Assembly (NCBI RefSeq): GCF_900172225.1
Contig: NZ_FWFO01000001.1
Coordinates: forward strand, 2,232,001-2,296,000
Reading direction: 5' to 3'
From: Falsiruegeria litorea R37
GTDB lineage: Bacteria; Pseudomonadota; Alphaproteobacteria; Rhodobacterales; Rhodobacteraceae
Length of the DNA: 64,000 bases
Shown: one piece after another, positions 35,436 through 52,358 of the stretch
Layout: every line of letters starts with the position of its first letter
Position numbering within the stretch: position 1 is the first letter of the stretch
Position numbers and translations under genes: made by a program
The notes under the pieces: generated by a model
What the model saw: only the letters and a program-made list of their open reading frames with translations
Databases searched by the model: none
Told to the model about the DNA's origin: nothing

Positions 35436-35974
35436 GTAAGTGCTTTCACTCGGGTTGGATCGAGCAAATTGATTTCGGAATGCGGAACGTTCCACAGGGG
35501 ATTGAGGATGAGATAGCACCGCGACAATCGGGACACGAGCCCTGTCATCCGAATCCATGTTTTTTGCGCGGGAATCAAAGTGGTGCCCAAGGAGAGACTT
35601 GAAGCCACACGCCCGTGAAAGCAGGGGATTTTGAATGCCTTCAATGAAACGGCTCCAACAGAGAAAATCGCTGGTTGCGATGTGGTTTGTGCACCCTATT
35701 TAGTCGCCAGCCTGCACAAACATCGAAGGTCTACCAGCCTAGGAGACCAGGCGATCGGCAGGCCTGCAGTGATGTTTGATAACCAAGCTGCTCACAAATC
35801 GACCTGCCCTGATCGAGCTTTTTCCGGCATGATCTGGTCCCGCCGCCCTCATACACCAAAGGCTGTTGGTGAATGGTGGGTCTGCAGGCCGCGAGCTAAA
35901 CTGAAAAAACGTCTTTCCAAACGCCTAATCTACTTCCTAATCTGACCCAAACCAAAGGATGGACAGACTTTTTC
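35436..35974. other. Non-coding stretch at the left island boundary
   Basis: This 539-bp gap carries the tRNA-Leu 3' copy (35579-35640). To its right, about 330 bp have no convincing frame. I looked for an integrase, recombination directionality factor or transposase remnant on both strands and can support none. It probably contains the promoter of the AraC gene on the left and of the MscS gene on the right. Confidence 0.5.
35579..35640 (-). repeat. Copy of the 3' part of tRNA-Leu(CAA), left end of putative island
   Basis: This 62-bp stretch aligns without gaps to 52271-52332 with 54 identical positions. It runs from the encoded CCA through the acceptor 3' strand, T arm, variable arm and into the anticodon stem-loop. 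The first 21 bases are identical, and so are two blocks of 12 and 13 bases. It has the same orientation as the intact tRNA gene and lacks the tRNA 5' half, so it cannot make a tRNA. This is the typical trace of site-specific integration at a tRNA 3' end. Confidence 0.85.
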
Positions 35975-37993
35975 GTGCCACGAGCAATTTTCCCCTCCAT
36001 TGCTGCACTCTTTGTGACGCTTCCCCTGCCGAAATCTGCAGGGGCGCAAGAGGCCGCCCCACCCCCATTTCTTGTCGAAGTCGATTTTGAAGGCGCTGCG
36101 CAAATACTCTGGACTGCTGGGGTAAGGCTGCAGGACGTGGTTGTTGCCATGCGCCAAAGCCCTGCAGCGGTTACCGATCTGATACGCGACCTGGGGCAGT
36201 TTGGGTTTGAGCCCGTCAAGGCTCTTTGGCTGTGTGTTTTGTTCACCGCCATAGCCATACTTGCCGAGTTGGGAATTCGGCGCATGCTTCGCCCGTTTCT
36301 GTCGACGGCCGCGCAAACCACGCCTCAAAGTCATACACAAAGGGGGCTAACACGCTTGCTGGCCGAGGCTGGAGCAATCGGCTGTTTTGCGCTCGTTGCA
36401 ACAGTGCCATTGATGATGGCTCTGGGCCGCGATCCGGTGGCTCTGGCGCTCTTGCTCACTCTCGGCCCCGCTGTACTGGCCGTGCGGGTGGTCGAAGCCG
36501 TATTTCGACGATTGGCCGAACCATTCACCACGGACGCAGATTCGCGTTGGCTGGATATGAATGATCATGATGCAGCTCGGTTTTACTTCTCATTTGTTGG
36601 CCTGACCGCACTCTCGGCCTTTTTCTATTTCTCCGTCCGCCTGCTGCAACAGGGTGGATTGGTCGCTGATGTTGTCGTCGGCTTCACGCTTTTGACGCGC
36701 ACTTTTCTCGCAGCCACGCTGATTGCTGCGTTCTTTGCCAACCAAGGCGGCGTCAGCGCCCTGATCCGCAAACGCCGTAGCGGTCTCGACCGCGGACCGC
36801 GCTGGCAAGCGCTGGCAGGTGTATGGCACAAGCTGGCGAGCGCTTATGTGGTTCTCTCCTGGCTCTGGACCTCGGTTCTGGTTTTGGTGGAGTCGCCGGA
36901 CGCCGACCGGGCCTCAATTCTGAGTTTCTTGGTCCTTATGGGAAGCTTGATCGCTGCGCTCAGTCTCGACGGCTGGATCTATCGCGACGAAAAGCAAGAA
37001 GACTTCGAGCTATCAGTTTTCAAAGAGGTCAGCCTCCGGGTCGGCGGGCAAGCCGTGGTTGGCGCCTCTTTGGTGTTGCTGATCTACATTTGGTTGCCAA
37101 CCTGGGACGACCTGCCCTTGTTGGCAACGGGTAGTGCACCACGCGAAGTGTTTGTCCAGATCTTGGTGACCCTGTTCTTGGCACACTTTGTCTGGATGCT
37201 TTTTGTTGTCTCCACCCGTCGGCTTGCGGGCACGACAGTAGACGACCCGCATCAGCCGCAGACCCGTGTCGAAACGCTTCTACCGCTGGTGCGCACTGTG
37301 ATTTTCTTTGGCCTGATCAGTGTTACCACCGTTATCATCATGTCGGCCCTTGGAGTCGATCTTCTGCCACTCTTTGCCGGCGCAAGCATCTTCGGCCTTG
37401 CCATTGGTCTAGGAAGCCAAACGCTCGTACGGGACGTGATCTCTGGGCTGTTCTTCCTGTTTGATGACGCCTTCCGCGTAGGTGAATATGTCGATTTGGG
37501 ACTGGCCATGGGCACGGTTGAAAAGGTTTCGACCCGCTCTATGCGCCTGCGACATCACCTTGGGACCGTACACACAATTCCCTACGGCGAAATCAAAACC
37601 GTGGCCAACCTTTCGCGCGACTGGGTGATCTACCCAGTTGAGTTCCGCGTGCCATTCGATGTCGATCCCAACGACCTGCGCAAGAAGATCAAGGCGCTCG
37701 GTAAGAAACTCGCGCAGAACCCGGACTATGGTCACAAGTTCACTGCACCTCTGAAATGTCAGGGCATCGTAGGGATGGAAGACGCCACCATGATGGTGCG
37801 GTGCAAGTTCATGACCAATCCCGGAGATCAGTTCGAGCTGCGCCGTATAGTTTACGACGAGCTAAGGGAACTCATGCGAAACGAAGGGATCTCGCTGGCG
37901 GCTCGCGAAGTGCGCGTAAGCTCGGGCGGCAAAGACCCAAAACAGGCCGCCGCCTCGACGGCCGTGGATTTTGGCGGCTCGGACCCCCTATGA
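35975..37993 (+). CDS. Large MscS-family mechanosensitive channel
   Basis: A 672-residue protein with a signal peptide (cleavage near KSAGAQ), a periplasmic segment and about 9-11 membrane helices. The MscS core near residues 440-520 has the pore helix region LFAGASIFGLAIGLGSQTLV, then ISGLFFLFDDAFRVGEYV and the beta domain with STRSMRLRHHLG and HTIPYGEI. It starts at GTG 35975, 14 bp after AAAGGA. The extended N-terminal region resembles large MscS relatives such as YbdG or YjeP rather than minimal MscS. It is first in a co-oriented run with the CHAT gene 48 bp downstream. Confidence 0.88.
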   Translation: MPRAIFPSIAALFVTLPLPKSAGAQEAAPPPFLVEVDFEGAAQILWTAGVRLQDVVVAMRQSPAAVTDLIRDLGQFGFEPVKALWLCVLFTAIAILAELGIRRMLRPFLSTAAQTTPQSHTQRGLTRLLAEAGAIGCFALVATVPLMMALGRDPVALALLLTLGPAVLAVRVVEAVFRRLAEPFTTDADSRWLDMNDHDAARFYFSFVGLTALSAFFYFSVRLLQQGGLVADVVVGFTLLTRTFLAATLIAAFFANQGGVSALIRKRRSGLDRGPRWQALAGVWHKLASAYVVLSWLWTSVLVLVESPDADRASILSFLVLMGSLIAALSLDGWIYRDEKQEDFELSVFKEVSLRVGGQAVVGASLVLLIYIWLPTWDDLPLLATGSAPREVFVQILVTLFLAHFVWMLFVVSTRRLAGTTVDDPHQPQTRVETLLPLVRTVIFFGLISVTTVIIMSALGVDLLPLFAGASIFGLAIGLGSQTLVRDVISGLFFLFDDAFRVGEYVDLGLAMGTVEKVSTRSMRLRHHLGTVHTIPYGEIKTVANLSRDWVIYPVEFRVPFDVDPNDLRKKIKALGKKLAQNPDYGHKFTAPLKCQGIVGMEDATMMVRCKFMTNPGDQFELRRIVYDELRELMRNEGISLAAREVRVSSGGKDPKQAAASTAVDFGGSDPL

Positions 37994-38041
37994 TGCTGAG
38001 GTGAATTGGCCGCGCTTGCCGCGACCGCATAAGAGAAAACC

Positions 38042-41000
38042 ATGTGGACTTTTATCAAAACCGCCAGCCTGGCCTTCCCGATTTACGCAGCTCTGAACAC
38101 TGTGCCAGCCATGGCACAAACCGACAATACCAGCGATCTGGCGGATCGCTGGCGCAATGCCGTCAACCAAATCTATTGCCCAAGCCAGCTGTCTTACGAG
38201 CGTGATCCAAAGACAAACACGCATTTCGACCACAACGACATTCTGGCGCTGACTTCGGCCTTTTCGGGCAACAGCATCGAGCAGCTTTTCTTGAACGCAG
38301 GTTACAGCCCCGAAGAAGCACAGATCGGCCTCAACCGGGGCTTGTTGGAATTTGACAATCGTGAAGTCATTTTACACCGCGTCCTGCAGGAGAATGACGA
38401 TGCCACCCGCCGCGCCGAGACTGAAATTGCCCAGCACGAAGGCAACATTTGTCCGGTCATCACCAAAGTGCTGGATACCGGTTACTTTGAAATCGTCCGA
38501 AAGCAGAGCACGCTGCGCCCCTATTGGCAGCCGCATTCGGAATACGCGCAGATGACGCTTGAACTCAAAGGCTGTGGTCCGGTCTTTGTAGACGGGCTGT
38601 TCGGCCCTGCCACCCTTGCACGTTGGAAAGAGGTCGGGTTCCCCGTCTCTGTGGGAACTCTTCCAAGTCCGGGTGATGTGATCTCTGCCAGCCGCAGCCT
38701 GACGACCTGTGACACGCCATACGAGGTCCGTGCCGGCGCGGTTCTGCAAGCCTGCGGTGAAGTCGGCTATGACATGATGCCTGACACCGGTCTTTCCGAT
38801 GTGGCGCAGCGCCACCAGACCTTGATGGGCGCGATTTCCTATGCGGCCTCCCGTTCAGAGTTTTCCTACTACACGAAGGCCGCGCCCTATCTTGCCTGCC
38901 TCATTCAGGGCACCAGCCACAGCTATGACGACGACAACAGCTTGCTGACACCTGTGGCAGAGGCGCTCGCAACCGTTGCACTACCAGACGAGGCCGATTG
39001 GGCCACATACCAATCAATCGCCACTGACGTTTTGTCCCCTCTTTTGGGGGTACGAACAAAGGACACCCTTGCCCGCGCGCTCTTGCAGACCGTGGGACCA
39101 AACCATTCGACGCAACGCAATCTGCTGGGCATAGCTATGCTGGAGCGAGCAGGTACAGGTCTCCCCCTGGAGAATGTTGCCATGCTGGCAGACCAGCCCC
39201 TACCGCTGCCACAGGCCATTTCGGCATTGGGCAATGTGATGCGCGTATCACTGAAGCGATGGAACACGGCACTCAGCCAACCGCAATGGGGGCAAAGCGA
39301 CCCCAACTATTCCTCTCGCGGCGGTTTGCGCCTGGACACCAATCTGATGATGGACGGTGGTCCAGAGTTTTATGACGCGATTGCGCAGATTGACCAATCC
39401 CAATCCCTGCGACACACCTTGCTGTCCTCGGATCTGGATCAGCTCAACTACGCCTATGGCGCCATGATCATGGAGGGACTCACCCCAAGCGGCCGCGACG
39501 AGGCCCGAGCTCTTGGTCATTTCTCTGCTGCCGCGGACAACGCCCATGCTCCCTCCTTGTTTCGGCTTGCCTTGATGCACGAATACGGCCTTGGTATCGA
39601 GGCCAGCACCCATGAGGCCAACCTCCTCTATATGCGCGCCGCTGCTGGGGGCGATCCTTCAGCCTATCTGGCTTTGGCGCAAAAAAGCGAAACCGGGAAA
39701 GGGCTCGAGAGGAACTGGAACGATGCTGCGAAATACTACCGGCATGCTCTCGAGAAAATGGATCCCACCGCGGCCGCTGGTGCCATCTATAGTCGCTGGT
39801 TTGACAACACTGGCTTCTGGAGCCCCGGCGAGCCTGGCGATGACTTGCTGCAGTTTGTGATTTCCGAGGCTTTCAGAAAACTACCGCCCGAAGCCGAAGA
39901 AGACTACACCGCCATTCAAACCCGCCAACATTATCGCGACATCGCAACGGCCATAGGCACCTTGTTTGCAGATGCCGACAGCGGCCAACACCTTGACCTT
40001 GCCAAGGCAGCTCAGTGGCTCCGTGTTGGGCAAAACAGCGGCACCTCATGGGAAGTCGCGGAAACCGATCAAGATGCTTACCGCCCTCCAAATCCTGGTG
40101 GCAAACAGCTTTTGGATGTGCTGCGTATCGCTCCCCACCTCGCTGCCCACCCTATGGAAGCAACCCTGCTTGCACAGCAAGCGGACACCACTTGGACGAA
40201 CCCAGATGATCCAGCAGAAGCAGCACGCCAAATGCGCGCCGACTGCCCACTGGAGAACCGCGAAGCCCACAGCGATTGTGCCAATCAGCTGCGACAGGCA
40301 GCTCTGGGATTTTACGACGCCAGTCTCATTGCCCCGGCCTTTGACCACCTCACCGCCATTTCCAACCTCGAAATAGCCGAGATCGAACGCTTTGGTCGTC
40401 TCCAACCCAATGAGGAAAACCGCACCAACGGGCAAGGGGCCAGCTACAACCGAACACCCGATTACACCTTTGCATTGGTGGACGTGCTGGCATTCTTTGG
40501 CGACTACGCCCAGGCCGAGCGTCTCGCGCAGCTTGCCCGAGGCGCCACCATCAGCGCCAGCGTCGCCCCCCTGCGCCGACAGGTGGCCCGCGCCGTGGAA
40601 ACTGGTGAAGACGTCAAAGGGCTTGGCACTTTGCTTACCACTGCCACGCAATTGGGCAACTCGGCCGCTCGAGATCTTCTTGCGGTGCTCAACGGCCGGC
40701 TTGATCAGGCGCCAATGCAACTCGATCTAAGCTCTGCACGCGACCGTTTTGACGGTCTTGCACATTTGACCAATTCGCTGGCCATGGCCACCAGCGCCCG
40801 GCGGCTGGCGATGCTTGAATCGGCTGCGGGCAATACAGACAGAGCTGCGGAATTAGAGCTTGTTGCCCTTGCGGCGGACTTGGAACGGCACGGTGCGGCG
40901 CGCGGTACGAATGGCCCCATCGGCACGGCACTGGCAGATGTTTGCAGTCTGTCAAAGACGTCCGAACGGCTGTTTGCTTATGGCGCGCCGGAAATGGCGC

Positions 41001-42673
41001 TTGTGATTGCAAAGCAGGCTGTCAATCGCCTGCAGCGCACCCGTGCCGACCTTTCCGCCCTACCCGAGCGAGTGCAACTGTGCTTCCGTTCTCAGGTCGA
41101 AGACCACTACCGGTGGCTGGCCGAACTGTTGATTTCGCAAAACCGGCCGCAGGAAGCTTCTCGTGTCCTGGAAATGCTGAAAGACTTTGAGAACTTTGAA
41201 TTTGCCAGCCGTTCGGCCGGGCTGCAGGGTGACGCCTATGACACTTTGCCCTTTTCCAGCGCCGAATTGGCATTGCAAAACGCCATGCAAGCCGTACGAC
41301 TGCCGGACCGTTACACAACAACCCGCCTGATCGAACTGGACAATCTCTCGGACTTGCGAGCACTGACATCGCAAGAGCTGCAGGAACAGTCAGATCTCCG
41401 CCAGGCGCGGGCCGTGAATGTTGACAGCGCAAACCGCGCTCGTCTGGATCTGAAAACAATGGCACTGAACGTGCGTGATCAAGGCGAAGCCCCCGATTTC
41501 ACCCAAGACAAACTGATTGCACGTTACCTGCGGTCGCGAGGCACAGAGAACGCCGCAATATTGCAATATGTAGTGCTCCAAGACCGGTTTGGTCTTGTTC
41601 TGTCCACCCGTTCTGGTCAGACCACATGGACGTGGAACCAGATCGGAAACAGCGCGTTTTCCGAAAATGAACTGAACGCGATGGTGAAGAATTTTCGCGA
41701 TGACGTCTACTACACCAACCGCGATCCCCGTCCGCTCGGAAAAAAGCTCTATGATCTTTTGTTGCCGCCGGACGTACAAGCTGAGCTCTCCAGCCAAGGC
41801 ATCGATACTCTGGTGCTGTCTCTCGACCGGCAGCTGCGTTACCTACCGATGGCCGCGCTGCACGATGGCAAGACCTGGCTGTCCCAATCTTACGTGCTCT
41901 CGCACGTCTCGGTCGGAACAGCTTCTGACGGGGCGGTCCCGCAAAGCGACTTGATCGCCGGATTTGGCGCGACTCAGGCGTTGAACGGCTTGCCAGCGCT
42001 GCCCGCCGTGCGAACCGAGGTCAACGCGGTAGTTCAGGAGAATGCCTCTGATGCAGGTTTCCTTGCTGGCTCTGCGCTCTTTGATCAGGACTTCAACCGC
42101 GAGACATTGGTGACAGCCCTCGAATTCGGCGGCACCAGCTCGGCTTCTGGAGTTTTGCACCTGGCCTCACATTTCAAAATTGGCCGAACAGAGGCCGAAA
42201 GCGCTCTCTTGCTGGGTGACGGCGATTTCTTGTCCGTTCGCGAATTGCGCGAGGGAATCGGGCACGGGGCCAACCTGACCCGCGTTGGCCTTTTGACCCT
42301 CTCGGCCTGTGAAACCGGCTTTGGCACGACCGGAGCAGATGGCCGCGAGTTGGAAAGCGTTGCCGCCATTGCCCAGCACCGCGGGGCGAAGTCCGTCATG
42401 GCATCACTTTTGCCAGTTCCGGATGGCGCCACCGCCGCTTTGATGGTGGAGTTCTATCGACATTACGCCGATGGCATCCCCCCTGCCCGTGCCATACAGG
42501 CCGCCCAGGTCGCAGTGATGTCAGGAGCCGTTGACGCCACCTCGCTGGCCGATCGTGGAACTTTTGACATCAGCGAAATTGACGACAGCCAGCCAGAGGT
42601 CGAAGCGCAATTGGAAGGTTGGCAACATCCCCGCTTCTGGGCCTCGTTTATTCTTCTGGAGGGAAGCCTTTGA
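38042..42673 (+). CDS. Exported Sel1-repeat protein with C-terminal CHAT peptidase domain
   Basis: A 1543-residue protein with a signal peptide (FIKTASLAFPIYAALNTVPA, then MAQ). Residues about 175-200 look like a small peptidoglycan-binding motif (VFVDGLFGPATLARW). Sel1-like repeats lie near 470-600 (AYGAMIMEGL; RLALMHEYGLGIEAS), then helical TPR-like repeats to about 1200. The CHAT domain fills the last 270 residues, with LDRQLRYLPMAAL, the catalytic His1377 in HLASHF and Cys1423 in LSACETGFG, and ends HPRFWASFILLEGSL. CHAT peptidases share the caspase fold. Most are cytosolic, so export is unusual. It is coupled to the next gene. Confidence 0.9.
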   Translation: MWTFIKTASLAFPIYAALNTVPAMAQTDNTSDLADRWRNAVNQIYCPSQLSYERDPKTNTHFDHNDILALTSAFSGNSIEQLFLNAGYSPEEAQIGLNRGLLEFDNREVILHRVLQENDDATRRAETEIAQHEGNICPVITKVLDTGYFEIVRKQSTLRPYWQPHSEYAQMTLELKGCGPVFVDGLFGPATLARWKEVGFPVSVGTLPSPGDVISASRSLTTCDTPYEVRAGAVLQACGEVGYDMMPDTGLSDVAQRHQTLMGAISYAASRSEFSYYTKAAPYLACLIQGTSHSYDDDNSLLTPVAEALATVALPDEADWATYQSIATDVLSPLLGVRTKDTLARALLQTVGPNHSTQRNLLGIAMLERAGTGLPLENVAMLADQPLPLPQAISALGNVMRVSLKRWNTALSQPQWGQSDPNYSSRGGLRLDTNLMMDGGPEFYDAIAQIDQSQSLRHTLLSSDLDQLNYAYGAMIMEGLTPSGRDEARALGHFSAAADNAHAPSLFRLALMHEYGLGIEASTHEANLLYMRAAAGGDPSAYLALAQKSETGKGLERNWNDAAKYYRHALEKMDPTAAAGAIYSRWFDNTGFWSPGEPGDDLLQFVISEAFRKLPPEAEEDYTAIQTRQHYRDIATAIGTLFADADSGQHLDLAKAAQWLRVGQNSGTSWEVAETDQDAYRPPNPGGKQLLDVLRIAPHLAAHPMEATLLAQQADTTWTNPDDPAEAARQMRADCPLENREAHSDCANQLRQAALGFYDASLIAPAFDHLTAISNLEIAEIERFGRLQPNEENRTNGQGASYNRTPDYTFALVDVLAFFGDYAQAERLAQLARGATISASVAPLRRQVARAVETGEDVKGLGTLLTTATQLGNSAARDLLAVLNGRLDQAPMQLDLSSARDRFDGLAHLTNSLAMATSARRLAMLESAAGNTDRAAELELVALAADLERHGAARGTNGPIGTALADVCSLSKTSERLFAYGAPEMALVIAKQAVNRLQRTRADLSALPERVQLCFRSQVEDHYRWLAELLISQNRPQEASRVLEMLKDFENFEFASRSAGLQGDAYDTLPFSSAELALQNAMQAVRLPDRYTTTRLIELDNLSDLRALTSQELQEQSDLRQARAVNVDSANRARLDLKTMALNVRDQGEAPDFTQDKLIARYLRSRGTENAAILQYVVLQDRFGLVLSTRSGQTTWTWNQIGNSAFSENELNAMVKNFRDDVYYTNRDPRPLGKKLYDLLLPPDVQAELSSQGIDTLVLSLDRQLRYLPMAALHDGKTWLSQSYVLSHVSVGTASDGAVPQSDLIAGFGATQALNGLPALPAVRTEVNAVVQENASDAGFLAGSALFDQDFNRETLVTALEFGGTSSASGVLHLASHFKIGRTEAESALLLGDGDFLSVRELREGIGHGANLTRVGLLTLSACETGFGTTGADGRELESVAAIAQHRGAKSVMASLLPVPDGATAALMVEFYRHYADGIPPARAIQAAQVAVMSGAVDATSLADRGTFDISEIDDSQPEVEAQLEGWQHPRFWASFILLEGSL

Positions 42674-43323
42674 AACACCTTGCTCCCGCCGCGACACTTC
42701 TTGTCCTATTGTCGCAACCGGCGGCTGCACAAATTGCAGAATGTTATGCTCTGCCGAAGCCGACAGAAGGTGTGGCCGAGATGGTCATGACCGAGACCGG
42801 AAACCTTATCTACACCCGCAGCAACCTGCCGCATATCCTCTATTTTTCGTCCTGCGGCATCGCCGAAAATGACACGCTCAATTGCAGTCTCGATTGTGAC
42901 GGTGGCAATATGAGCGTGACACACAGTCCCTCAGAACTTCTGATCAACGCGTCTATTCGCATTGAACAGATGCAAATTGACAGTGTGCTGTATGCCCCAG
43001 CAAATGAAGCCGACGGAACTCAGCTCAATGGCAGTTTCACCCTCACCCCCATGCCGCTGGCAACCTGCCGAGAGATTGAGAATCGCACGCCCCCGATCGA
43101 GCTTGCCGCGGGGGACGTGAATGTTCTGGTGGAAGGGGTGGAAAAGAACCTGATTTCTGGGGGCTATCTTTTGGGAGCCCCTGATTACATATTTGATGGC
43201 CGTACCCGTGACGCACTGATCGCCTATCAACAAGACGCCGGTCTTGCCCCAACCGGCACGGCCGGGCCCAACGTCCGGCGCCAACTGGCTACTGACAGCC
43301 TGCTGGCTTTTGGCGGCTGCTAA
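42670..43323 (+). CDS. Exported protein with C-terminal peptidoglycan-binding-like domain
   Basis: A 217-residue protein. It starts at TTG 42670, overlapping the CHAT stop by 4 bases (TTGA), with GAGGGAAG just upstream; the signal peptide is HLAPAATLLVLLSQPAAAQ. The middle is beta-rich with six or so cysteines (SSCGIAENDTLNCSLDCDGG). The end (DYIFDGRTRDALIAYQQDAG, LAPTGTAGPNVRRQL) resembles a PG_binding_1 domain. The tight coupling to the CHAT gene suggests a partner that places the complex at the cell wall; this is inference. Confidence 0.72.
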   Translation: MKHLAPAATLLVLLSQPAAAQIAECYALPKPTEGVAEMVMTETGNLIYTRSNLPHILYFSSCGIAENDTLNCSLDCDGGNMSVTHSPSELLINASIRIEQMQIDSVLYAPANEADGTQLNGSFTLTPMPLATCREIENRTPPIELAAGDVNVLVEGVEKNLISGGYLLGAPDYIFDGRTRDALIAYQQDAGLAPTGTAGPNVRRQLATDSLLAFGGC

Positions 43324-45084
43324 TCAGTCACCCCCGGCAAGCCGGATCAGGCTGGCTGTCAAAAGTTCGGCCTCTTCTTGGTCCGAGACATGTTCGGCAA
43401 CCACCTGGCGGATGGTGTCGTTGCTAACAGGTCCAAGGTTCCACAGATGGGCGATCAGCCTAACCATCTTTCCGTCCTGGCAGATTCCTTTCTGGTACTG
43501 CCAAACCTCGCGCACCGCGCCATCCGGTACGGCCTCTTGCAATCCACAGCGCCGCTCGGGCGCGGGGTTGGCCCATATCAGCGAGACAATATCGGCCAGA
43601 GCCGAACTGTCATTGGCAAAATAGGTATGCGCCAGCATGTCCTCACCCAAAGTGGTCATATCCACTGTGTCAAACCGTTGATCTGACAGAATGCTGTCGC
43701 CCGCCTGCCCGGCGCGCGGAGCATTTCCGTGCAGTTTGCGAGATGCAGTCAGCGCCCAGTCTTCTTCCGAAGTATAAAGGGTCATCCGCTCTCCCATCGG
43801 CTTGATGGTCTTCAACATCTCGCGAAACAGATCAGCATCCACATCTGGCGCCGCAAAAAACAGCTGACCAAAAGGTGGCACATCAAGCTCCGCCGCATTG
43901 TTCTTCATCGCCAATAACTCAAGCGCATCGGTCAGGGCGCGGTTGCCCATGGAATGTGCCACAATGTGGATCGTCTCCGCGCCGCTTCGTTCTTTCAGTT
44001 CTTCCAGAAACACTGCCAGCCGCCGTCCGCTCAACCGCACAACCGCCGTATCCGCCACATAGCGGAAGGTCTTGCCTGCCGACGGCCAGCTGTAAAGCAC
44101 CGGAACGCCGCTGTAATTCATGTCATACGCCAGTTGCGCAGCCCGCCGCGCTGCCGCATCAAATCGTGTATTGAACCCATGCACAAAGACAAATGCCTCT
44201 TTGCGCGCACTGTCCTCTACTCGCGCCTGCATCCGGCTGAAATACACGTCGTTCTCAAGCGGATCCACCTTGCGTACCATGACATGTTTGGCCGGATTGG
44301 CCCCAAATTCCAGCCGCCAGATCGAGGGGCGCTCGATGGCGCCTGGCACATGCTCACTTGGGATCGACACGGTCACGATTCCGTATTCCAGATCGCTTCG
44401 TCCATAACCATAAAACTCATTGGGATCGCTGTCGCCGCTTCGCGCCCGATCTGTTGCGTAGAACACTTCGACCTCAGAGAAACCAGTCTCCCCCGCTGCC
44501 CGAACACCTGCTGCCTTCGGGTCCATCATCGCTTGGCGCTGTGCATAAAACCCCTCTGCCCCGGCTGAATCGCCCCTCTGGGTCGCCAGCCGCTCAAGCT
44601 GGGCGTAAACTTCGGCCACCACGTCGCCGGACTGCCCGGCATCCAGCCGCAGCTTCACCTCGGCCTCATAGCTCTCAATGGCCTTGCGAGTGTTTCCGGC
44701 CGCCTCGTACAGCTCTGCCGCCTGTCGATAGAGGGTCACCGGATCGCGCCCTACAATATCCCGATTGTCCCTCGCAAATTTCGCCATTCCTTCCGCCAGC
44801 GAGGCTGCATCCTGAACCCGATCAGCTTGCGTCAACAATTCCAACCGCCGCGCATTCAGATCGAAGTAAAGCCGCAGGTCCGGGGTCGCTTCTTGCTCTA
44901 CGGCCACGATCGCTCGCTCCACCAGCGCAAGCTCAACCTCTGGTGTCTCTGCCTGCCCCAATGCAATCTCGAAGCCTACCGGATCAAAACGTTCCACCTC
45001 TTGGGCGGCTGCATCAATCGCCAGCCCACCCAAAAAACAACCGCCAATCAAAAGTGTGAAAAGATTCTGTCTGAAGTAGCGCAT
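43324..45084 (-). CDS. Exported TPR protein with DUF900-type alpha/beta hydrolase domain
   Basis: A 586-residue protein with a signal peptide (LLIGGCFLGGLAIDAAAQ). TPR-like helices at residues 40-190 include LYRQAAELYEAAGNTRKAIE. A DUF900 esterase/lipase-type domain follows from about 215: FYATDRARSGD, AFVFVHGFNTRFDAAARRA, VPVLYSWPSAG and the nucleophile elbow VAHSMGN (Ser378). The end is a roughly 100-residue helical region. The gene is on the strand opposite its neighbours and its stop abuts the previous stop. It faces the caspase gene across a 151-bp divergent promoter region. The substrate is unknown. Confidence 0.85.
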   Translation of the reverse strand: MRYFRQNLFTLLIGGCFLGGLAIDAAAQEVERFDPVGFEIALGQAETPEVELALVERAIVAVEQEATPDLRLYFDLNARRLELLTQADRVQDAASLAEGMAKFARDNRDIVGRDPVTLYRQAAELYEAAGNTRKAIESYEAEVKLRLDAGQSGDVVAEVYAQLERLATQRGDSAGAEGFYAQRQAMMDPKAAGVRAAGETGFSEVEVFYATDRARSGDSDPNEFYGYGRSDLEYGIVTVSIPSEHVPGAIERPSIWRLEFGANPAKHVMVRKVDPLENDVYFSRMQARVEDSARKEAFVFVHGFNTRFDAAARRAAQLAYDMNYSGVPVLYSWPSAGKTFRYVADTAVVRLSGRRLAVFLEELKERSGAETIHIVAHSMGNRALTDALELLAMKNNAAELDVPPFGQLFFAAPDVDADLFREMLKTIKPMGERMTLYTSEEDWALTASRKLHGNAPRAGQAGDSILSDQRFDTVDMTTLGEDMLAHTYFANDSSALADIVSLIWANPAPERRCGLQEAVPDGAVREVWQYQKGICQDGKMVRLIAHLWNLGPVSNDTIRQVVAEHVSDQEEAELLTASLIRLAGGD

Positions 45085-45235
45085 ATCAATCCCGGCTTAG
45101 CCAAAAGTCAGTCGCCCGAGCGTAGTGGCTGCGAATAATACTTGTCACCCCCATTTATTAGCCTTCAAACTGCCCAAAACACATTTCAGTCCGCCTGGGA
45201 TAAGCGACGCGGGACCAGGCTTTAAGGAGCCACAG

Positions 45236-47419
45236 ATGATTACAAAATGGCTGACCGCCGCCGTTTCGGCATATCTGTGGCTGTCGTCTCCGCTCCAGGC
45301 TGAAATTCGCGCCCTGCTGGTCGGTGTTTCCGATTATGATGAGGCGTCGGACATTCCCGATCTTCGTGGACCAAAGAATGATGTCACCCTGATGCAAGAT
45401 GTGCTGCAAGCGCGCGGCGCAACCGACATCATTGTGCTGGCCGATGGAGTAGATGGTGGCACCAAACCGACGCTTGCAGCCATCGAAACCGGATTTGCCG
45501 ACCTCACAGCACGGGCTCAGCCGGACGACTTGGTTTACGTGCATCTTTCCGGCCACGGCACCCGGCAACCCGATCTTTCGGGTGACGAAACCGACGGTCT
45601 GGACGAGGTTTTCCTGCCCGCCGACAGCGCGAAAGTGCCGTCCGGCGCCTCGACGATCCCCAACAGCCTGACGGACGACCTTCTTGGTGAGTTGATCATC
45701 AACCTGCGTGCCACTGGTGCTGATGTCTGGGTGGTCATGGACAGCTGCCATTCCGGCAGCGGCACCCGCAGCCTGTCTGGCACCACCGCCGAACGCAATG
45801 TCGATCCAAACGTGTTGGGTGTCGACATCAGTCAAGCCACTGCACAATCGGGCGCAACGCCTCCGCCTTCGACTGTCGCTGACGCTGCTCTCGGCGGCTA
45901 TCTTGCATTTTATGCCACCCGCTCCAACGACGTCGCCCGAGAAGGAGATTTTTCCGATGGCACCACATCTGACCAGTGGTTTGGCCTTTTCACCGCGGCT
46001 CTGGCCGCGCGTTTGGAAAACGGACAAGCGTTGAGCTATCGCCAGCTTTTCCAGGGCATTCTAAGCGATATGAACAAAGGGCGTGGCTTCGGTGCTGGTA
46101 GCCTGCAAACCCCGCTCTGGGAGGGCAATCTGATCGATGCCTCGGTCTTTGGCGGAGGGGACAACAGCGGCACAACCCGGTACCTGACCTCTGGTGACAG
46201 GGTCGAAGCCGGGCTGGTGCACGGTCTTCAGGTCGGGTCCCTTCTGGCACTTTTTCCAGATGTGGCGGATTCAGGTGACGTGGCACCGCTGGGATATGCG
46301 CAGGCCGAAGAGGTCAACGCGCGCAGCAGCTATCTGCGCCCTGTTGCTACCGACTGCCAACCGCAGGCGAAAACCCTCTGCGATTGGGCTGACAGCCTGC
46401 CAAGCGAGGCGCGCTTTGCTCAGGTCGAAGTGCATCCCGCCAACCCAACTGTACGGTTCTCTCCAATACTGGACTTTGAAACCGGCGCACCATTGGCGGC
46501 GAACAACCCCACCTCGGATTTGCTGCAAGATGGCGTCGCGCGGGCAGTCGAAGCCTCGGGCATTCCGGCCGAAATCACCCCTGATAAGATCGACATTCGC
46601 GTAACGCTGCGAAACGACAGCCTGTGGTTTGGCCCTGTGACGCAACTCGGGGCGGATCCTGTGGGGCTTGAGGTCCCGCTTTATGGCACGGGCACCCCCG
46701 ATCTGCTGCCACCGGTTCTGCGCATCCTGCGAGCAGAGCGTCTGGCGCGCATTCTGGATTCGCTCGACGGTGGAGGTGGCCTGTCAAACCCGCTACCGCT
46801 GGACATCGATGCTGAGCGGTTTGACAGCACGCTCAGTGATCTTGCAAGTCCCGGTCAGCGCATTCAGCCCCAACGTGAATGTCGTCCGGTCTTTCGCAAT
46901 GCCATGCAAAGCAGTTTTGACGGGCTGGATCCCCTGAGCGACGTCAAACAATGCGACGTGCTGCGCTTTTCGGCGCGTGGCAACCGCGACGGTCAACGCG
47001 ACGTGAACCGTATCCACATCGATTCCCAATATTGCATCAACGTGGCTTATGAGTTGGTTGAAGGAAAACAGAGTCAGCGAAAAGTTGGCGATGAAATGGT
47101 GGTCTGCTCCGACTGCCCTGGCGATGTCTATTCCGCGGGGCAGGAACGGCTTTACGTTCTGGTTAGCGATCTTGAAGAAAATGCCGAGGCTCTCAACCTC
47201 ACCGGATTGGTCGAAAACTGCGACACCGGTACCCGCTCTGTTCGCACCGCCCGCGGGGAAATGTTGCGAGAGTTTTTGCAAGATGCCGGTCAGGCCGGTT
47301 TGACACGCGGCAACATGGGCATGGGCATGAGTGCCGCAACAGGCGGGATATGGGTGCAGAGCTATCGCTGGCGCGTGTTGCCCCGCACCGAGGCCTTCCG
47401 CACCTACGCCAGCCAATAA
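45236..47419 (+). CDS. Exported caspase-family (C14) peptidase
   Basis: A 727-residue protein. The ATG at 45236 follows AAGGAG and gives the signal peptide TAAVSAYLWLSSPLQA. The caspase p20-like domain starts at EIRALLVGVSDYDEASDIPD. His107 lies in VHLSGHGTR and Cys171 in VVMDSCHSGSG, the metacaspase-type dyad. The later half is mostly beta with a VVCSDCPGDVYSAGQERLYV segment reminiscent of DUF4384, a domain often joined to such peptidases. It is followed 19 bp later by the WD40-caspase gene. Export to the periplasm is uncommon for this family. Confidence 0.88.
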   Translation: MITKWLTAAVSAYLWLSSPLQAEIRALLVGVSDYDEASDIPDLRGPKNDVTLMQDVLQARGATDIIVLADGVDGGTKPTLAAIETGFADLTARAQPDDLVYVHLSGHGTRQPDLSGDETDGLDEVFLPADSAKVPSGASTIPNSLTDDLLGELIINLRATGADVWVVMDSCHSGSGTRSLSGTTAERNVDPNVLGVDISQATAQSGATPPPSTVADAALGGYLAFYATRSNDVAREGDFSDGTTSDQWFGLFTAALAARLENGQALSYRQLFQGILSDMNKGRGFGAGSLQTPLWEGNLIDASVFGGGDNSGTTRYLTSGDRVEAGLVHGLQVGSLLALFPDVADSGDVAPLGYAQAEEVNARSSYLRPVATDCQPQAKTLCDWADSLPSEARFAQVEVHPANPTVRFSPILDFETGAPLAANNPTSDLLQDGVARAVEASGIPAEITPDKIDIRVTLRNDSLWFGPVTQLGADPVGLEVPLYGTGTPDLLPPVLRILRAERLARILDSLDGGGGLSNPLPLDIDAERFDSTLSDLASPGQRIQPQRECRPVFRNAMQSSFDGLDPLSDVKQCDVLRFSARGNRDGQRDVNRIHIDSQYCINVAYELVEGKQSQRKVGDEMVVCSDCPGDVYSAGQERLYVLVSDLEENAEALNLTGLVENCDTGTRSVRTARGEMLREFLQDAGQAGLTRGNMGMGMSAATGGIWVQSYRWRVLPRTEAFRTYASQ

Positions 47420-47438
47420 TCCAGCAAGGAAAGTGATC

Positions 47439-50400
47439 ATGAAACAGCCTGGCTTTCGCTCTTTTGTCCTCGCTGTTGCGACCTTGTTGACCATCCTAAG
47501 CGCCACGCCCCAAGCCATCGCGCAACCCCCCATCGCTCAGGTCATGACAGAGCCAGACGAACGCCATTCAATGGTTCTGGAGTTTTCCCCAGACGGTCGC
47601 CGCCTCGCTATCGCAAGCTTGAGCGACCTTTGGATACGAGACATTGGCACCGGCGAGGTTTTGTTTCAGGAGAAGCTGGAAACCAGCGTCCAGGACCTGA
47701 CCTTTCTGCCCAACGGGAAATTTTTGGCCGTGGCACTGGGAGAAAAGGGCGTAATCGTTTTTGACCCCCAAAACCGCACCCAGCCCGAAGCCCACCGAAT
47801 ACCTGGAACATGGGACAAGGTACGCGCGCATGCAGATGGCACAGGCCTGTATGGAGGCAACTGGGAAACCGCCAAATCTATGCAGCTACCTGGCACCACC
47901 TATAGCGAGATCGACTTGTTCATTCTCTTCCCGTCCTACCAGTTCGACGCGGACGGTAACACCACGATCGCCCGTATGAATTGGCAAATGCACCTGCAGA
48001 ACCATGCGGAGTTCGAGTCACTTCGCACCTCTGGCAACGTCAACTCTGTTTACAGCAGCGCGCTATACAACTTCATTGCCCGAGGGCTGATTGCCCTGAT
48101 CCATACCGACCCCGAAGCCGACCCACACCAGAGTTTCCTCACCTATCAGCCCAATAGTGAACCACGCATGAAGGACTATCGGCAGACCGAACGCGGCCCA
48201 CGCGCCTTGGTTTGGGGCAAAGCCGAAAGCGAAGACCGCTTTGTCGTGATCGATCCGGGAAACTCAGAAGTCACATTCCAGCTCGGCTTTGAGGCCGGGG
48301 AGTACTCGCCATACACCGCGGCGACCCTGGCACCAAATGGGCAAATGGTGGCGGCTCTGCACCGAAACGGTCAAATCAACATCTTCGCCACATCTGACGC
48401 TCCTGAAGACCTCAGCTTCTCCGACGCACCACCTCTGACCGACCAAGCCCCGGACATTGCCTTGACACAAAGCCACAGCGATCCGATCAAAACGATCGCA
48501 ATTGCGCCTGACGGAAGAACCTTTGTTTCACTGGGCCAGGACAACCGCATGCACCTATGGGACGCTGTTTCAGGTCGTGCCCTGCGCAGCATTGCTGAGG
48601 GAGAATTTTTCAGCACAGTTTCCTATGCGCCAGACAGTAAAACGTTGCTGACAATCGGTCACTCGGACGGGTTCGAACTCTGGTCCACGGCCACAGGGCA
48701 GCTTGCAGGTGGCAACCAACACACACCACAGGTCGTCTGGGCAAGTTTCCTGGGCCCGACCGGCGACATACTGGCCTGCGGCACCGCCGGTTGCGACATC
48801 GGATCAGAACAGGACTTCGAGCGTGGAACCGTCACGACCTTAGAAATGCCCGTGCTGATGGATGTTGGCAGCTTCAATGGCGCCTCCGTTTCCCCGGACG
48901 GATCGCGCACGGCTCTGTCTGTCGGCGGTCAGGTCATTTTGATCGACACGGAACGTCGCAGCCTGCAAAAAATAGACACCCCCGCCGAAGCCTCGAAAGT
49001 GGCATTGAACAGCGCGGATTTTGGCCTGATTGTCACCAAGGACGGCCAATTGCAGGAATTCGATGCCAAATCTGGGACTTTGGGCCAACAGCATGACCCG
49101 CTGGGTTTTGACATTGACCAAATCACCCACATCGCCAACGATCAATTTCTCCTTTCCACGTCCTCTGGCGTCAATCTCGACGGCTTGGACGATCCGCCAA
49201 TGCATCGGGTGTACGATCGGCGTTCAGCCTCGGTTGTCGCAACTCTCCCCGCCCCACTCTCTGCACCCGGCATCGGAGGTGCTGGCCCCGTAGCTTTCCA
49301 TCCCGCTACAAGCACGGTTGTCGGTGTGGGGCACTCTGGCTGGAACGGCGCGCCTCAAATTGATGTATGGGATCTGTCACGGGGGCCCAACGAAGCCACC
49401 CTGCGCCATACCATAAAATCCGCGGCCATGGCCCCTCGTTCCTTGGTATTTTCTCAAGACGGTGACACGTTGGTCATCAACGGACGCGAACAGGCGGCGC
49501 ATTGGGATCTGCAAAGCGGAAAAGTTACGCGTGTCCGCGGCACCCCGATTTTTGCAAATACCGTCATTTCAAAAGGCGGCCTGACCTACATCAGTCAGAG
49601 TGACAGCGAACGGAAACTGGCCCATGCCAACACCACAATCGGCGAGATCACTCGCGACTGGAAAAAAAGTGACGCCTTCTACGGCGACCCAGAAGGCCGG
49701 ATCTTAAGCAACGGAAAAGACATCTTTTTGACCAACGGCCAGACAATGGCTCACTTCGACATTGCGACGATCGAAAATACCAAAAAGCCACTGCGGACCG
49801 TACAAGAGTTCACCCTGGAGGGCGGGTATCTGACTGATCCTCCATTGATTTCACCGAATGGAGAACACTTGCTGGGTGAAGTCTTTCAGGACAATCAGCG
49901 CAGGCTTCAGCTCTATGATGCCTCGACCGGCGAAATGATTTGGGCGGTCAACAACGACCAATATCTGGAAGACTGGGCCTTCTCACCGGATGGGCAAACC
50001 ATCGTCTGGCTCGACAACGGTTGGCGCCCTCCGGCTGTCATAGACGTGACCACGGGTGCTCAAAATCCGGTGCCTGGTTTCGACACGCCCGATCGCCCTG
50101 ACGGTCTTTTGGCTGTAGACCGTTTTGGAGTTGGCCAGTTGATGAAAGTGATCGACGACAACAGGATCCTTCTGCTGGACAGTAAAGGCGCCCCCAGCGA
50201 TCACAGCACCTCGCTCGCCGGAGTTGCGCCCCGTTCCGCCCGCCTTAGCCACACGCGCGATATGGCGTTGATAGAAGGTTCGGACGGCCGCAATCTTTTG
50301 TGGAACTGGCAGAATGGCCTCTCGCACCCGATTTCTGCAAATCCTATTGGCGCGGACGGCATCGCCTTTTCTCCGGATGGTCGGTTGTTGGCCATTGCCG

Positions 50401-51995
50401 AGACCAGCGGCGTGATTTCGCTGTGGGAGGTACAAACCGGTGCCCGTCTGGTGCGGCTTGTGTCTCTGCTTAGTGGTGATTGGGCCGTGCTCGGAGAAGA
50501 CGGGCGATATGATGCCTCAGACCCGGGCAATTTTCCGGCACTTGGCTGGGTCCTACCCGATGATCCGCTCCGTTCCTTGCCGGTAGAGCTGTTTTATCGC
50601 GAGTTCTTTGAGCCGCGCCTGTTACCACGTTTGCTCAACGCGGAATACCTGCCGCCGCTGCCAGACCTGCCTGCGCTCAATCGACAGCAGCCCGAGTTGG
50701 CTTTCGGGGACGTCGTCTTCGATGCCCAACGACCGAACGAGGTCTCGGTCTCTTTGACCGTATCCGCTGTTGGCCCTGAAGGTGCAGGTAGCGGCGTGTC
50801 ATCGGTCAAACTCTTCCGTGATGGCCAGCTGGTGGCCCAACGGGAGGGTGGGCCACAGGGACTGATTTCGGCCGAACAAGGCACCGCCAGCCTCACCCTG
50901 ACATTTGAGCGTATCCAACTTCCTACAGACGGTAAGGATGTGCTGTTCGAGGCTTACGCTTTCAATGCAGACGGGGTCAAAAGCACAACCGTACAGAAGT
51001 CCCTGCCCGCCCCTGAAACCCCATTGCAAAATGACCGTACCGCCTACGTTATTAGTATCGGCGTAGACAGCTATGAAAACTCTTCGTGGGATCTGAACTA
51101 TGCAAGTGCTGATGCCATTCTCTCTGCAGAGAGCGTCGCCGACCGGATTTCTGCGCAGGGGGGATTTGACCGCGTTGTTTCAATACCGCTGGTCTCATCA
51201 CGCGCTCTCGGACAATCAAAGGCCAGTCGCGCCCATGTCGAAACCGTGTTGGCAATACTGGGCGGGGCGCAAGTTTCAGAGGCGGACCGCGCGGCTATCC
51301 CAGGCGCACAAACACTGCGCCGCGCCCGCCCCCAAGATTTGGTCTATGTGTTTTTTGCCGGCCACGGGTTTGCCGACGATGACGGCCTGTTTCATCTCTT
51401 CTTACAAGACATAGGCACCGATTCCGTCGGCCGCGTCGTAGACGACGCGCTATTGACGAAAACGCTCGACAGCAACCGATTGTCCGATCTCTTCCGCGAC
51501 ATTCAGGCGGGCGACATGGTACTGGTAATTGATGCCTGCAATTCGGCAGCCAGCGTCGAGGGAGAGGCGTTCAAGCCGGGTCCGATGGGCAGCAGGGGTT
51601 TGGGTCAATTAGCCTATGACAAGGGAATGCGCGTGCTGACCGCCAGCCAAGCCGAAGGCGTCGCGCTGGAATCCGATGTTCTACGGCACGGAGCGCTTAG
51701 CTACGCCATGTTCCGCGAAGGTCTGGAAGACGCTCGTGCCGACAGAGCCCCAGTGGATGAGCGCGTGAGCTTTGGCGAGTTGCTGAGCTTTGCCGAACAA
51801 CGGGTGCCCACGCTTTACAAGGAAATAGTCGATCACAACTTTATGCCAGTAGAACGCGGATCTATGAGTTTTTCGGCTGATGATGGCGACATAGCCTCGA
51901 CCCAAAGCCGTTCTACACGCTACCTACAACGCCCTTCGTTGTTTGACTTTACTAGAAACCACGGGCGCGACTCGGTCTATCTCAACCTAAACTGA
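47439..51995 (+). CDS. Exported WD40-repeat protein with C-terminal caspase-like domain
   Basis: A 1518-residue protein with AAGGAAAG before ATG 47439 and a signal peptide (FVLAVATLLTILSATPQAIA). Residues about 45-1010 form WD40-type propeller repeats (MVLEFSPDGRRLAIASLSDL; FSPDGQTIVWLDNG; IAFSPDGRLLAIAETSGVI). After a beta linker, the caspase domain begins near residue 1197 (TAYVISIGVDSYENSSWDLN), with His1309 in VFFAGHGF and Cys1367 in LVIDACNSAAS. The propellers probably act as the sensing or scaffold part. It is the last gene of the cluster, 280 bp before the tRNA. Confidence 0.88.
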   Translation: MKQPGFRSFVLAVATLLTILSATPQAIAQPPIAQVMTEPDERHSMVLEFSPDGRRLAIASLSDLWIRDIGTGEVLFQEKLETSVQDLTFLPNGKFLAVALGEKGVIVFDPQNRTQPEAHRIPGTWDKVRAHADGTGLYGGNWETAKSMQLPGTTYSEIDLFILFPSYQFDADGNTTIARMNWQMHLQNHAEFESLRTSGNVNSVYSSALYNFIARGLIALIHTDPEADPHQSFLTYQPNSEPRMKDYRQTERGPRALVWGKAESEDRFVVIDPGNSEVTFQLGFEAGEYSPYTAATLAPNGQMVAALHRNGQINIFATSDAPEDLSFSDAPPLTDQAPDIALTQSHSDPIKTIAIAPDGRTFVSLGQDNRMHLWDAVSGRALRSIAEGEFFSTVSYAPDSKTLLTIGHSDGFELWSTATGQLAGGNQHTPQVVWASFLGPTGDILACGTAGCDIGSEQDFERGTVTTLEMPVLMDVGSFNGASVSPDGSRTALSVGGQVILIDTERRSLQKIDTPAEASKVALNSADFGLIVTKDGQLQEFDAKSGTLGQQHDPLGFDIDQITHIANDQFLLSTSSGVNLDGLDDPPMHRVYDRRSASVVATLPAPLSAPGIGGAGPVAFHPATSTVVGVGHSGWNGAPQIDVWDLSRGPNEATLRHTIKSAAMAPRSLVFSQDGDTLVINGREQAAHWDLQSGKVTRVRGTPIFANTVISKGGLTYISQSDSERKLAHANTTIGEITRDWKKSDAFYGDPEGRILSNGKDIFLTNGQTMAHFDIATIENTKKPLRTVQEFTLEGGYLTDPPLISPNGEHLLGEVFQDNQRRLQLYDASTGEMIWAVNNDQYLEDWAFSPDGQTIVWLDNGWRPPAVIDVTTGAQNPVPGFDTPDRPDGLLAVDRFGVGQLMKVIDDNRILLLDSKGAPSDHSTSLAGVAPRSARLSHTRDMALIEGSDGRNLLWNWQNGLSHPISANPIGADGIAFSPDGRLLAIAETSGVISLWEVQTGARLVRLVSLLSGDWAVLGEDGRYDASDPGNFPALGWVLPDDPLRSLPVELFYREFFEPRLLPRLLNAEYLPPLPDLPALNRQQPELAFGDVVFDAQRPNEVSVSLTVSAVGPEGAGSGVSSVKLFRDGQLVAQREGGPQGLISAEQGTASLTLTFERIQLPTDGKDVLFEAYAFNADGVKSTTVQKSLPAPETPLQNDRTAYVISIGVDSYENSSWDLNYASADAILSAESVADRISAQGGFDRVVSIPLVSSRALGQSKASRAHVETVLAILGGAQVSEADRAAIPGAQTLRRARPQDLVYVFFAGHGFADDDGLFHLFLQDIGTDSVGRVVDDALLTKTLDSNRLSDLFRDIQAGDMVLVIDACNSAASVEGEAFKPGPMGSRGLGQLAYDKGMRVLTASQAEGVALESDVLRHGALSYAMFREGLEDARADRAPVDERVSFGELLSFAEQRVPTLYKEIVDHNFMPVERGSMSFSADDGDIASTQSRSTRYLQRPSLFDFTRNHGRDSVYLNLN

Positions 51996-52270
51996 TCTGC
52001 CTTTCACCATTTCCCCTACACCGAGCGCTGCGGATCCAGTGTCGCGACGTGACAGATGCGCCTATCTTCGAAAGCTCGACGTTTGGTGGCGATGTAGTTT
52101 GCACATTTTTCGTTGGCCCAGAGGGGCGAACTACGCAAAGCATTGGATGTGAGAGGTCGAGAGGACAAGCGAAAACACTAAGCGCGCCCGTGACTCATCT
52201 GATGCTTTCCGCCACGCGGAATTTGAGGTGGTTTTCCCCGTCAGAACGCCAATTTGTATTGAGAAATCAT

Positions 52271-52332
52271 AGTGGTGCCCAAGGAGAGACTCGAACTCTC
52301 ACGCCCGTGAAGGCGGGGGATTTTGAATCCCC
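52271..52332 (-). repeat. tRNA-Leu 3' segment matching the left island end
   Basis: This is the intact-gene copy of the 62-bp direct repeat that pairs with 35579-35640. It lies inside tRNA-Leu(CAA), from two bases beyond its CCA end to the anticodon stem. The two copies are 16.7 kb apart in the same orientation. Between the WD40-caspase stop (51995) and this repeat lie 275 bp with no supported gene. Confidence 0.85.
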
Positions 52333-52358
52333 TGCGTCTACCATTCCGCCACTTGGGC
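52273..52358 (-). tRNA. tRNA-Leu (anticodon CAA)
   Basis: The minus strand gives an 86-nt type II tRNA including CCA. The acceptor GCCCAAG pairs with CTTGGGC, the anticodon stem GGGGA/TCCCC encloses the loop TTCAAAA, a long variable arm CGCCTTCACGGGCG follows, and the T arm is GAGAGTTCGAGTCTCTC. The anticodon CAA reads UUG. The gene is intact despite being the probable integration site of the island to its 3' side. Confidence 0.97.

Follow-up and report, generated by a model that had tools for sequence, protein, structure and literature searches.

A recurring set of C14 metacaspase-like, DUF900, and CHAT genes on a tRNA-site island of Falsiruegeria litorea R37 as a candidate exported protease-hydrolase module

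The DNA analyzed here is a stretch of 64,000 nucleotides from Falsiruegeria litorea R37 (the window; 2232001-2296000 of contig 1, in a genome of 4.69 Mb). It contains a block of six genes for an MscS-family channel (MscS), a CHAT protease (CHAT-A), a small peptidoglycan-binding protein (PG-binding), a DUF900 hydrolase on the minus strand, a C14 metacaspase-like protease (C14), and a WD40-caspase, in this order (Table 1). In the sequence comparisons the genes of this set recur and are linked to one another, the set appears mobile, the active sites are intact, and signs of export are seen. The block is tentatively interpreted as a mobile, exported protease-hydrolase module whose proteolytic relay would answer envelope damage, most likely by altruistic lysis; our confidence in this interpretation falls somewhat short of even. 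The set itself is probably a real, little-known envelope system. A first-pass annotation of the window had placed the cluster at 38042-51995. The MscS gene that it named lies outside these coordinates, and the block is therefore taken as 35975-51995. Pfam matches bore out the six-gene neighborhood with MscS, a wall-binding-like protein, and DUF900, and the three His/Cys dyads are present as they had been described (CHAT H1377/C1423, C14 H107/C171, and WD40-caspase H1309/C1367).

Orthologs of C14 were collected by a scan of 84,980 species genomes, which returned 62 loci. Sixteen of these (L138-L153) hold 15 full-length orthologs and one contig-end fragment; L143, L144, L149, L151, and L153 are identical with genomes G008, G272, G288, G284, and G031 of the family survey described below and were counted once. 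Two more, Sulfitobacter SK012 (L059) and Sulfitobacter THAF37 (L200), came from searches of plasmids, and together with the window these make 19 ortholog loci. Seven of the 46 non-ortholog loci (L154-L199) were mapped. Genes were called present or absent by BLAST to reference proteins and not by full annotation. At least one further protease gene accompanies C14 in 19/19 loci. DUF900 was found in 16/19, CHAT in 17/19 (in L145 and L146 the contig stops early, which bears on this count), S1A trypsin in 11/19, a rhodanese-domain protein in 8/19, MscS in 5/19, and WD40-caspase in 3/19. The C14 and DUF900 genes are divergent in 15 of 16 loci and lie on the same strand in THAF37. Judged from these matches, the recurring core is C14 plus DUF900 plus one or more CHAT proteins. 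This core is joined either by MscS, CHAT-A, and PG-binding, with the WD40-caspase added here, or by S1A trypsin, often with the rhodanese-domain protein. With the BLAST references used, none of the 19 loci combined S1A trypsin with MscS or WD40-caspase, which would suit exchangeable second proteases.

Co-occurrence outside this strain had been named beforehand as the check on which the proposal could be refuted, and it was found in the 19 loci, among them those of Martelella and of two Sulfitobacter plasmids. The fixed set of six genes in the first-pass annotation did not survive the same comparison; the invariant unit was dropped, since MscS, CHAT-A, PG-binding, and WD40-caspase come and go around the core and S1A trypsin takes their place in many loci.

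The portion of the set shared with the window differs from locus to locus. Lentibacter carries CHAT-A, PG-binding, DUF900, and C14 in the order and orientation of the window, at 47, 58, 63, and 55% identity, respectively; the CHAT-A match covers nearly the whole length, and a 57-residue C-terminal remnant is all that is kept of MscS, in the same place. The genes for C14, MscS, CHAT-A (34% over the C-terminal half), and PG-binding (33-34%) are consecutive in two Martelella species, with DUF900 and another CHAT gene on the other side. Neither CHAT-A nor PG-binding was found within the 17 kb examined in a third Martelella. MscS homologs stand beside a C14 ortholog in all three Martelella (34-37%) and in THAF37 (42%), and MscS as a bystander was dropped on this account. 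THAF37 combines CHAT, C14, DUF900, and MscS with a distantly related WD40-caspase, and a WD40-caspase relative is present on the SK012 plasmid (45% over 39% of the length). PG-binding also follows CHAT-A in Roseateles XES5 and on Pseudosulfitobacter plasmid pSMR1-1, where the CHAT-A relative (36.9% over 98%) is split into two frames (L058 15007-19470). Searches with WD40-caspase and CHAT-A in 147 relatives gave mostly domain-level matches.

In the C14 tree, from which THAF37 is absent, the window, Lentibacter, and the three Martelella form one clade with support of 99/99. Martelella belongs to another order, Hyphomicrobiales, and its position within the clade of the window and Lentibacter indicates that the set moved sideways. 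Horizontal spread is thus apparent at the sequence level from the other order, from the plasmids, and from the tRNA-flanked block.

Two loci in this collection are recorded separately. The Roseateles XES5 plasmid (L060 8761-15949) is a further wall-linked CHAT set, in which an OmpA-family gene, a two-gene CHAT-A-like pair, a PG-binding gene, and a hypothetical gene are consecutive. The DUF900 ortholog of L145 (8083-9953), a Roseivivax metagenome-assembled genome, is found in two frames and is broken or misassembled.

Linkage was quantified in a survey of 325 family genomes from 324 genera; these genomes are not independent, and the p-values ignore kinship. A C14 match at E 1e-10 occurs in 39/325 genomes and a full-length C14 ortholog in 6/325 (G000, G008, G272, G284, G288, and G031, the last split over contigs). 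A C14 search of the genome that contains the window found one gene. The linkage statistics used 45 C14 rows of at least 158 bits (22 weaker rows were dropped), 32 trypsin rows of at least 110 bits, 13 DUF900 rows above 400 bits, and all 58 CHAT rows. Strong S1A trypsins are rare, with 32 genes in 29 of the 325 genomes; for 20 of these genes a C14 gene is no more than 3 kb away, where 0.08 would be expected. The co-occurrence of C14 and trypsin by genome has a p of 5e-20. C14 (26 genomes) and CHAT (33 genomes) share 21 genomes, with a p of 3.4e-20, and 6 of the 13 long DUF900 genes are within 3 kb of C14. These values bear on the proposal that unrelated accessory genes have pooled as chance cargo in island or plasmid hot spots. 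The tRNA-Leu site described below, whose content is not the same in any two of three congeners, and the membership that differs between loci would both suit such pooling. It is nevertheless very unlikely, given that the same small set is found again at other sites, in other gene orders, and across families and replicons, that the trypsins are so close to C14, and that the C14/DUF900 pair is divergent in 15 of 16 loci.

A second C14 subfamily is found as pairs approximately 4-10 kb apart in 13/325 genomes (L098-L110). The neighborhoods of this second architecture contain a HAMP kinase, an OmpR-type regulator, a DegP-like PDZ protease, and a conserved small protein in 13/13 genomes, together with S1A trypsin in 12/13, a patatin in 8/13, and CHAT in 5/13, as counted by BLAST in the fetched 20 kb with names taken from Pfam on L098. 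The architecture is also present on a Pseudosulfitobacter plasmid, and 46 plasmid records of this genus match the C14 query. The DegP-like PDZ protease and the two-component system beside these caspases, and the grouping of several proteases of different class, would fit envelope protein quality control, in which auxiliary periplasmic proteases clear or process misfolded or wall-bound proteins and no cell is killed. Against this stand the patchy presence of the C14 ortholog (6/325) and its location on plasmids or an island. DegP-like proteases of the PF00089 type, identified by partial matches, are moreover already present in 324/325 genomes, and quality control has no need for lipase-like partners. 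We regard quality control as rather unlikely.

Further loci of these kinds were noted. Taken together, the loci of the second architecture are L098-L112, L122-L125, and L201. In Mesorhizobium (L154, L155, L158, L165, and L192), a second-subfamily C14 gene lies near a gene for a protein of approximately 1000 amino acids with weak similarity to the WD40-caspase; in L154 DNA polymerase I is on the other side. Rhizobium leguminosarum plasmid pRLTp73_3 (L061) has a 16-kb stretch that contains five caspase-family genes and, in their midst, a gene of the phage-lysozyme type.

The block is an old tRNA-site island without an integrase. It is bordered by a tRNA-Leu gene and by a degenerate direct repeat that copies the gene's 3' part, and the repeat copies are spaced 16692 apart. 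The tRNA-Leu gene and the DNA behind it are kept at ~84% in 3/3 congeners, and the 12.9-18.8 kb before tRNA-Leu in the three congeners shares nothing with the window or with each other. The distance from the left-side AsmA gene to the right-side DedA gene is ~32 kb on one contig of congener G001 and 22 kb here. No DNA match to the AraC gene immediately left of the repeat was found in the three congeners, and the variable stretch may therefore extend beyond the repeat. The G+C content of the block does not stand out. The interval is taken up by the six genes, and no integrase is among them. Outside the island repeat, positions 31336-34272 of the window encode a 978-residue protein with low-complexity family matches only.

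Signal peptides were assessed by inspection and with rules devised for this analysis rather than with SignalP. A first rule was discarded as too permissive, since it passed 80/196 neighboring control open reading frames and 11/15 response regulators; the C14 protein of the window failed it. In 17/18 C14 orthologs, a charge-free hydrophobic stretch and an [AVSTLIG]-x-A site stand directly before the catalytic domain. Both features together occur at 1.5% of 11,800 control positions taken from these C14 proteins; the site alone, which is found at 41% of them, was likewise set aside as weak. This controlled test was applied to C14 only. Eight noncatalytic cysteines are kept in 18/18 C14 orthologs, a pattern that fits disulfides formed in an oxidizing space. 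The cysteine argument holds for the orthologs only, since just one cysteine is present in two C14 rows of the second subfamily. From these sequence features, C14 is probably exported. The patatins of the second architecture match a loose lipobox pattern in 9/10 cases, and these patatins and the PG_binding_1 partner point to the envelope. Signal peptides had originally been proposed for all three proteases; the controlled test lends it support for the C14 orthologs, and the C14 of the window failed the first rule. The periplasmic placement suggested at the same time is favored by the signal-like starts of C14, the conserved cysteines, the PG-binding partner, and the lipobox-like patatins.

The main products look exported, as would also be expected of a secreted set whose released enzymes attack other cells or digest polymers, and the source fields give diatom cultures or a microplastic surface as the origin of some hosts. 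The wall-binding, channel, and lipoprotein-like partners suggest retention instead, and large WD40/TPR/Sel1 scaffolds are unusual in released enzymes. An offensive or scavenging role is accordingly judged improbable.

The catalytic residues H107 and C171 of C14 are found in 18/18 orthologs, and in 33/33 rows when the second subfamily is included. The protein exceeds the Pfam cut-off for PF00656 (21.4 bits). The AlphaFold2 model of C14 has a mean predicted local distance difference test score (pLDDT) of 77.9. Its fold matches metacaspase 4 with a Z of 25.4 and a root-mean-square deviation of 2.7 over 225 residues (span 23-309), and Foldseek matched metacaspase 9 at an E of 5e-12. For the C-terminal region there are weak Ig-like matches only (RhoGDI and factor XIII, E ~0.005); the VIA list for C14 covers residues 21-308, not this region. 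Residues D49, S105, and D169 are kept in 18/18 orthologs. The pocket residues reported for TbMCA2 are D95, S156, and D211 (PMC4357240). With the dyad as anchor, S105 and D169 correspond to S156 and D211, and D49 would correspond to D95 from the motif spacing in a yeast alignment. Because this acidic pocket is kept, cleavage after Arg or Lys is expected for C14. Such a predicted pocket could also cut the activation site of the linked trypsins, which have R/K before [IV]xGG in 29/31 rows (25/27 distinct loci; two rows are off pattern). These trypsins keep the His motif in 31/31 rows and GDSGG in 30/31, the remaining one being cut by a contig end. The Ca2+ site described for CgMCA consists of G196, D198, D214, T242, and D245 (PMC9622860). 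C14 residues G121, D123, and D147 are kept in 18/18 orthologs and D148 in 17/18. R178 stands at the position of CgMCA D245 if aligned without a gap, and the alignment is gapped there. A Ca2+-activated metacaspase that would be silent until export was tried as a model and is only partly supported by these residues.

The gene layout of the block is compact. MscS and CHAT-A are separated by 48 bp and C14 and WD40-caspase by 19 bp, the CHAT-A stop and the PG-binding start share 4 bases, and 151 bp lie between the divergent DUF900 and C14 genes. The likely starts are ATG 45236 for C14 and ATG 47439 for WD40-caspase rather than the longer GTG frames. CHAT-A passes the Pfam CHAT model by far (cut-off of 24 bits), its Sel1 match is weak (20.8 bits, under the cut-off of 30.7), and H1377 and C1423 are invariant in three aligned rows. 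CHAT profile A6 and solved structures gave no match. The WD40-caspase fails the PF00656 model (16.3 bits, below the cut-off), and its dyad region aligns with three relatives; since the cut-off is missed and the dyad is kept among relatives, the protein is termed caspase-like only. A distant WD40-type caspase-like gene was also noted in family genome G037 (L003; 29% over residues 1010-1493). The AlphaFold2 model of DUF900 (pLDDT 84.2) shows helical repeats followed by an alpha/beta hydrolase. Structure matches were to TPR proteins for the N-terminal half and to lipase and poly(ethylene terephthalate) hydrolase at E ~0.0015, and S378 shows at least 90% conservation across 21 rows.

Table 1. Coordinates of the block genes and of the island borders in the window
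Feature	Position	Strand	Basis
MscS-family mechanosensitive channel, 672 aa, signal-like N-terminus	35975-37993	+	PF00924 57.3 bits, PF21082 26.3 bits
CHAT-A: signal-like start, middle part of Sel1 type, CHAT protease at the C-terminus, H1377/C1423	38042-42673	+	PF12770 164.3 bits
Small peptidoglycan-binding protein (PG-binding), signal-like start	42670-43323	+	PF01471 40.2 bits
DUF900 alpha/beta hydrolase, N-terminal helical TPR-like repeats, Ser378 in HSMGN	43324-45084	-	PF05990 153.5 bits
C14 metacaspase-like protease, H107/C171, C-terminal beta-rich region, eight conserved cysteines	45236-47419	+	PF00656 71.5 bits
WD40-caspase, H1309/C1367	47439-51995	+	WD40 matches, weak PF00656
tRNA-Leu (CAA), right island edge	52273-52358	-	ARAGORN
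Degenerate direct repeat of tRNA-Leu 3' part, left island edge	35573-35639	.	67 nt, 88% to 52265-52331

A mechanism for the relay can be proposed in steps, given here in falling order of confidence. The proteins of the module would work in the periplasm or at the wall. C14 would cut after Arg or Lys. CHAT-A and the PG-binding protein may act as sensor or scaffold at the wall, where damage by a phage lysin, a predator, or osmotic or antibiotic stress would gather the proteases. The proteases could then activate one another and a second protease, either the trypsin zymogen, cut at its R/K-[IV]xGG site, or the WD40-caspase. Cleavage would finally free the lipase-like activity of DUF900 and, where present, act on MscS, so that the envelope is permeabilized and the cell is killed or remodeled. 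We infer the sequence in which the parts act, their triggering by wall damage, and lysis as the outcome. In its most specific form, the proposal describes a zymogen cascade in the periplasm that would be the bacterial analog of complement or clotting. The metacaspase would be fired by wall-bound CHAT/PG-binding sensors and would in turn fire an interchangeable trypsin or WD40-caspase, and this second protease would switch on lipid hydrolases and the channel so that they breach the cell's own envelope once it is damaged from outside. This form is considered doubtful.

Several observations weigh against the relay. An R/K activation site is usual in S1A zymogens, and the caspase is therefore not singled out as the activator. 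The metacaspase Ca2+ site is only partly kept, with no acid at the position of CgMCA D245. L142 and L152 carry C14, trypsin, and CHAT without DUF900, and full-length DUF900 orthologs are found without C14 in the fetched stretch in seven loci or genomes (L113-L119). CHAT is usually not adjacent to C14, as 14 of 58 CHAT genes are within 10 kb of it. The WD40-caspase is rare (1/325 family genomes at E 1e-25, plus one distant relative at E 4e-15), and the one in THAF37 is only a distant relative (24% over 171 residues). Distant WD40-caspases would escape the BLAST references used, and the loci with MscS and CHAT-A that are in the tree form one clade, so the trypsin exchange may reflect one or few events. 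A PG-binding domain within CHAT-A was not significant (1/6 at E 0.08). A tRNA gene was found nearby in only 2/17 other loci (16 ortholog loci plus L059, scanned over the fetched stretch), namely, L149 (tRNA-Cys) and L151 (tRNA-Thr), and the tRNA setting is therefore not general. C14 has no match in 50,697 phage records, and PADLOC gave partial matches only, to a caspase model and a HEAT model; nothing therefore ties C14 directly to phage.

The PADLOC result also bears on a dedicated anti-phage or anti-predator system that would cause abortive lysis when the wall is breached. Caspase and trypsin have been proposed as prokaryotic conflict effectors (PMC10907252), the distribution is mobile and patchy, and the PG-binding partner could see lysin damage. 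The partial PADLOC matches speak against such a system, as do the scores of 39.7 and 47.5 bits with the model for EACC1-associated caspase systems (NCBIfam NF047832), for which the cut-off is 140. A system dedicated to defense thus seems a poor prospect. The EACC1-associated systems resemble the block in having caspase effectors in mobile neighborhoods; the block differs from them in that its six genes include no EACC1 or NTPase partner.

C14 has the fold, dyad, and acidic pocket of the metacaspases of family C14 (Arabidopsis MC4 and MC9, yeast Yca1, Candida glabrata MCA-I, and Geobacter GSU0716). Unlike these, it has a signal-like start, a long C-terminal beta-rich region with eight cysteines, and one Ca2+ ligand position without an acid, and it sits in a conserved gene set. 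CHAT-A resembles the TPR-CHAT proteases (Csx29/Craspase and gasdermin-linked) in the repeat scaffold that precedes a CHAT domain with a His/Cys dyad (PMC10028731 for part of this comparison) and differs from them in its signal-like start. No CRISPR effector or gasdermin is among the six block genes; selected neighbors only were scanned with Pfam. Fusions of trypsin and caspase domains have been described as pseudo-orthocaspases in Alphaproteobacteria (PMC6426788), a trypsin-like/caspase link in the same class. The fusions are single proteins with a changed (QC) dyad, whereas here the genes are separate and the HC dyad is intact. The best NCBIfam match of the window MscS is to the large YbiO-type channels (PRK11465, 150.8 bits), far under the model cut-off of 596, and the channel is linked to proteases here.

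Gingipain and clostripain are exported clan CD peptidases, and they likewise have a caspase-like fold outside the cytoplasm; they belong to other peptidase families and lack such a gene set. The statement in the first-pass annotation that known bacterial systems act in the cytosol was too strong in view of gingipain and of conflict systems with trypsin and caspase effectors (PMC8195603, PMC10907252), for which PMC10907252 describes some sensors as predicted to be secreted or periplasmic. The main text of PMC8195603 contains neither "signal peptide" nor "periplasm". Gingipain is placed in clan CD, with a basic P1 preference of gingipain R, in PMC4357240. Exported bacterial metacaspases were suspected in 2012 (PMC3501461), and a TAT-like signal was reported for cyanobacterial pseudo-orthocaspases (PMC6426788). 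In PMC4933709, terms on export and partners were found only in one reference title. No publication on such a gene set was found among the matches listed in an open-access library; subscription papers and preprints were outside the scope of this search.

In most discussions, the caspase and CHAT systems of prokaryotes are treated as devices for death or immunity inside the cell. If the proposed relay is correct, bacteria would also run a protease relay outside the membrane, on the side first exposed to wall damage, predators, and phage lysins. Such an envelope set would mix a metacaspase, CHAT proteins, trypsin, lipase-like enzymes, and a channel, and it would be both recurring and transferable. 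Sulfitobacter THAF37 and SK012, Phaeobacter marinintestinus, Martelella, and Maritimibacter HTCC2654 carry the set and make the function of bacterial metacaspases directly testable.

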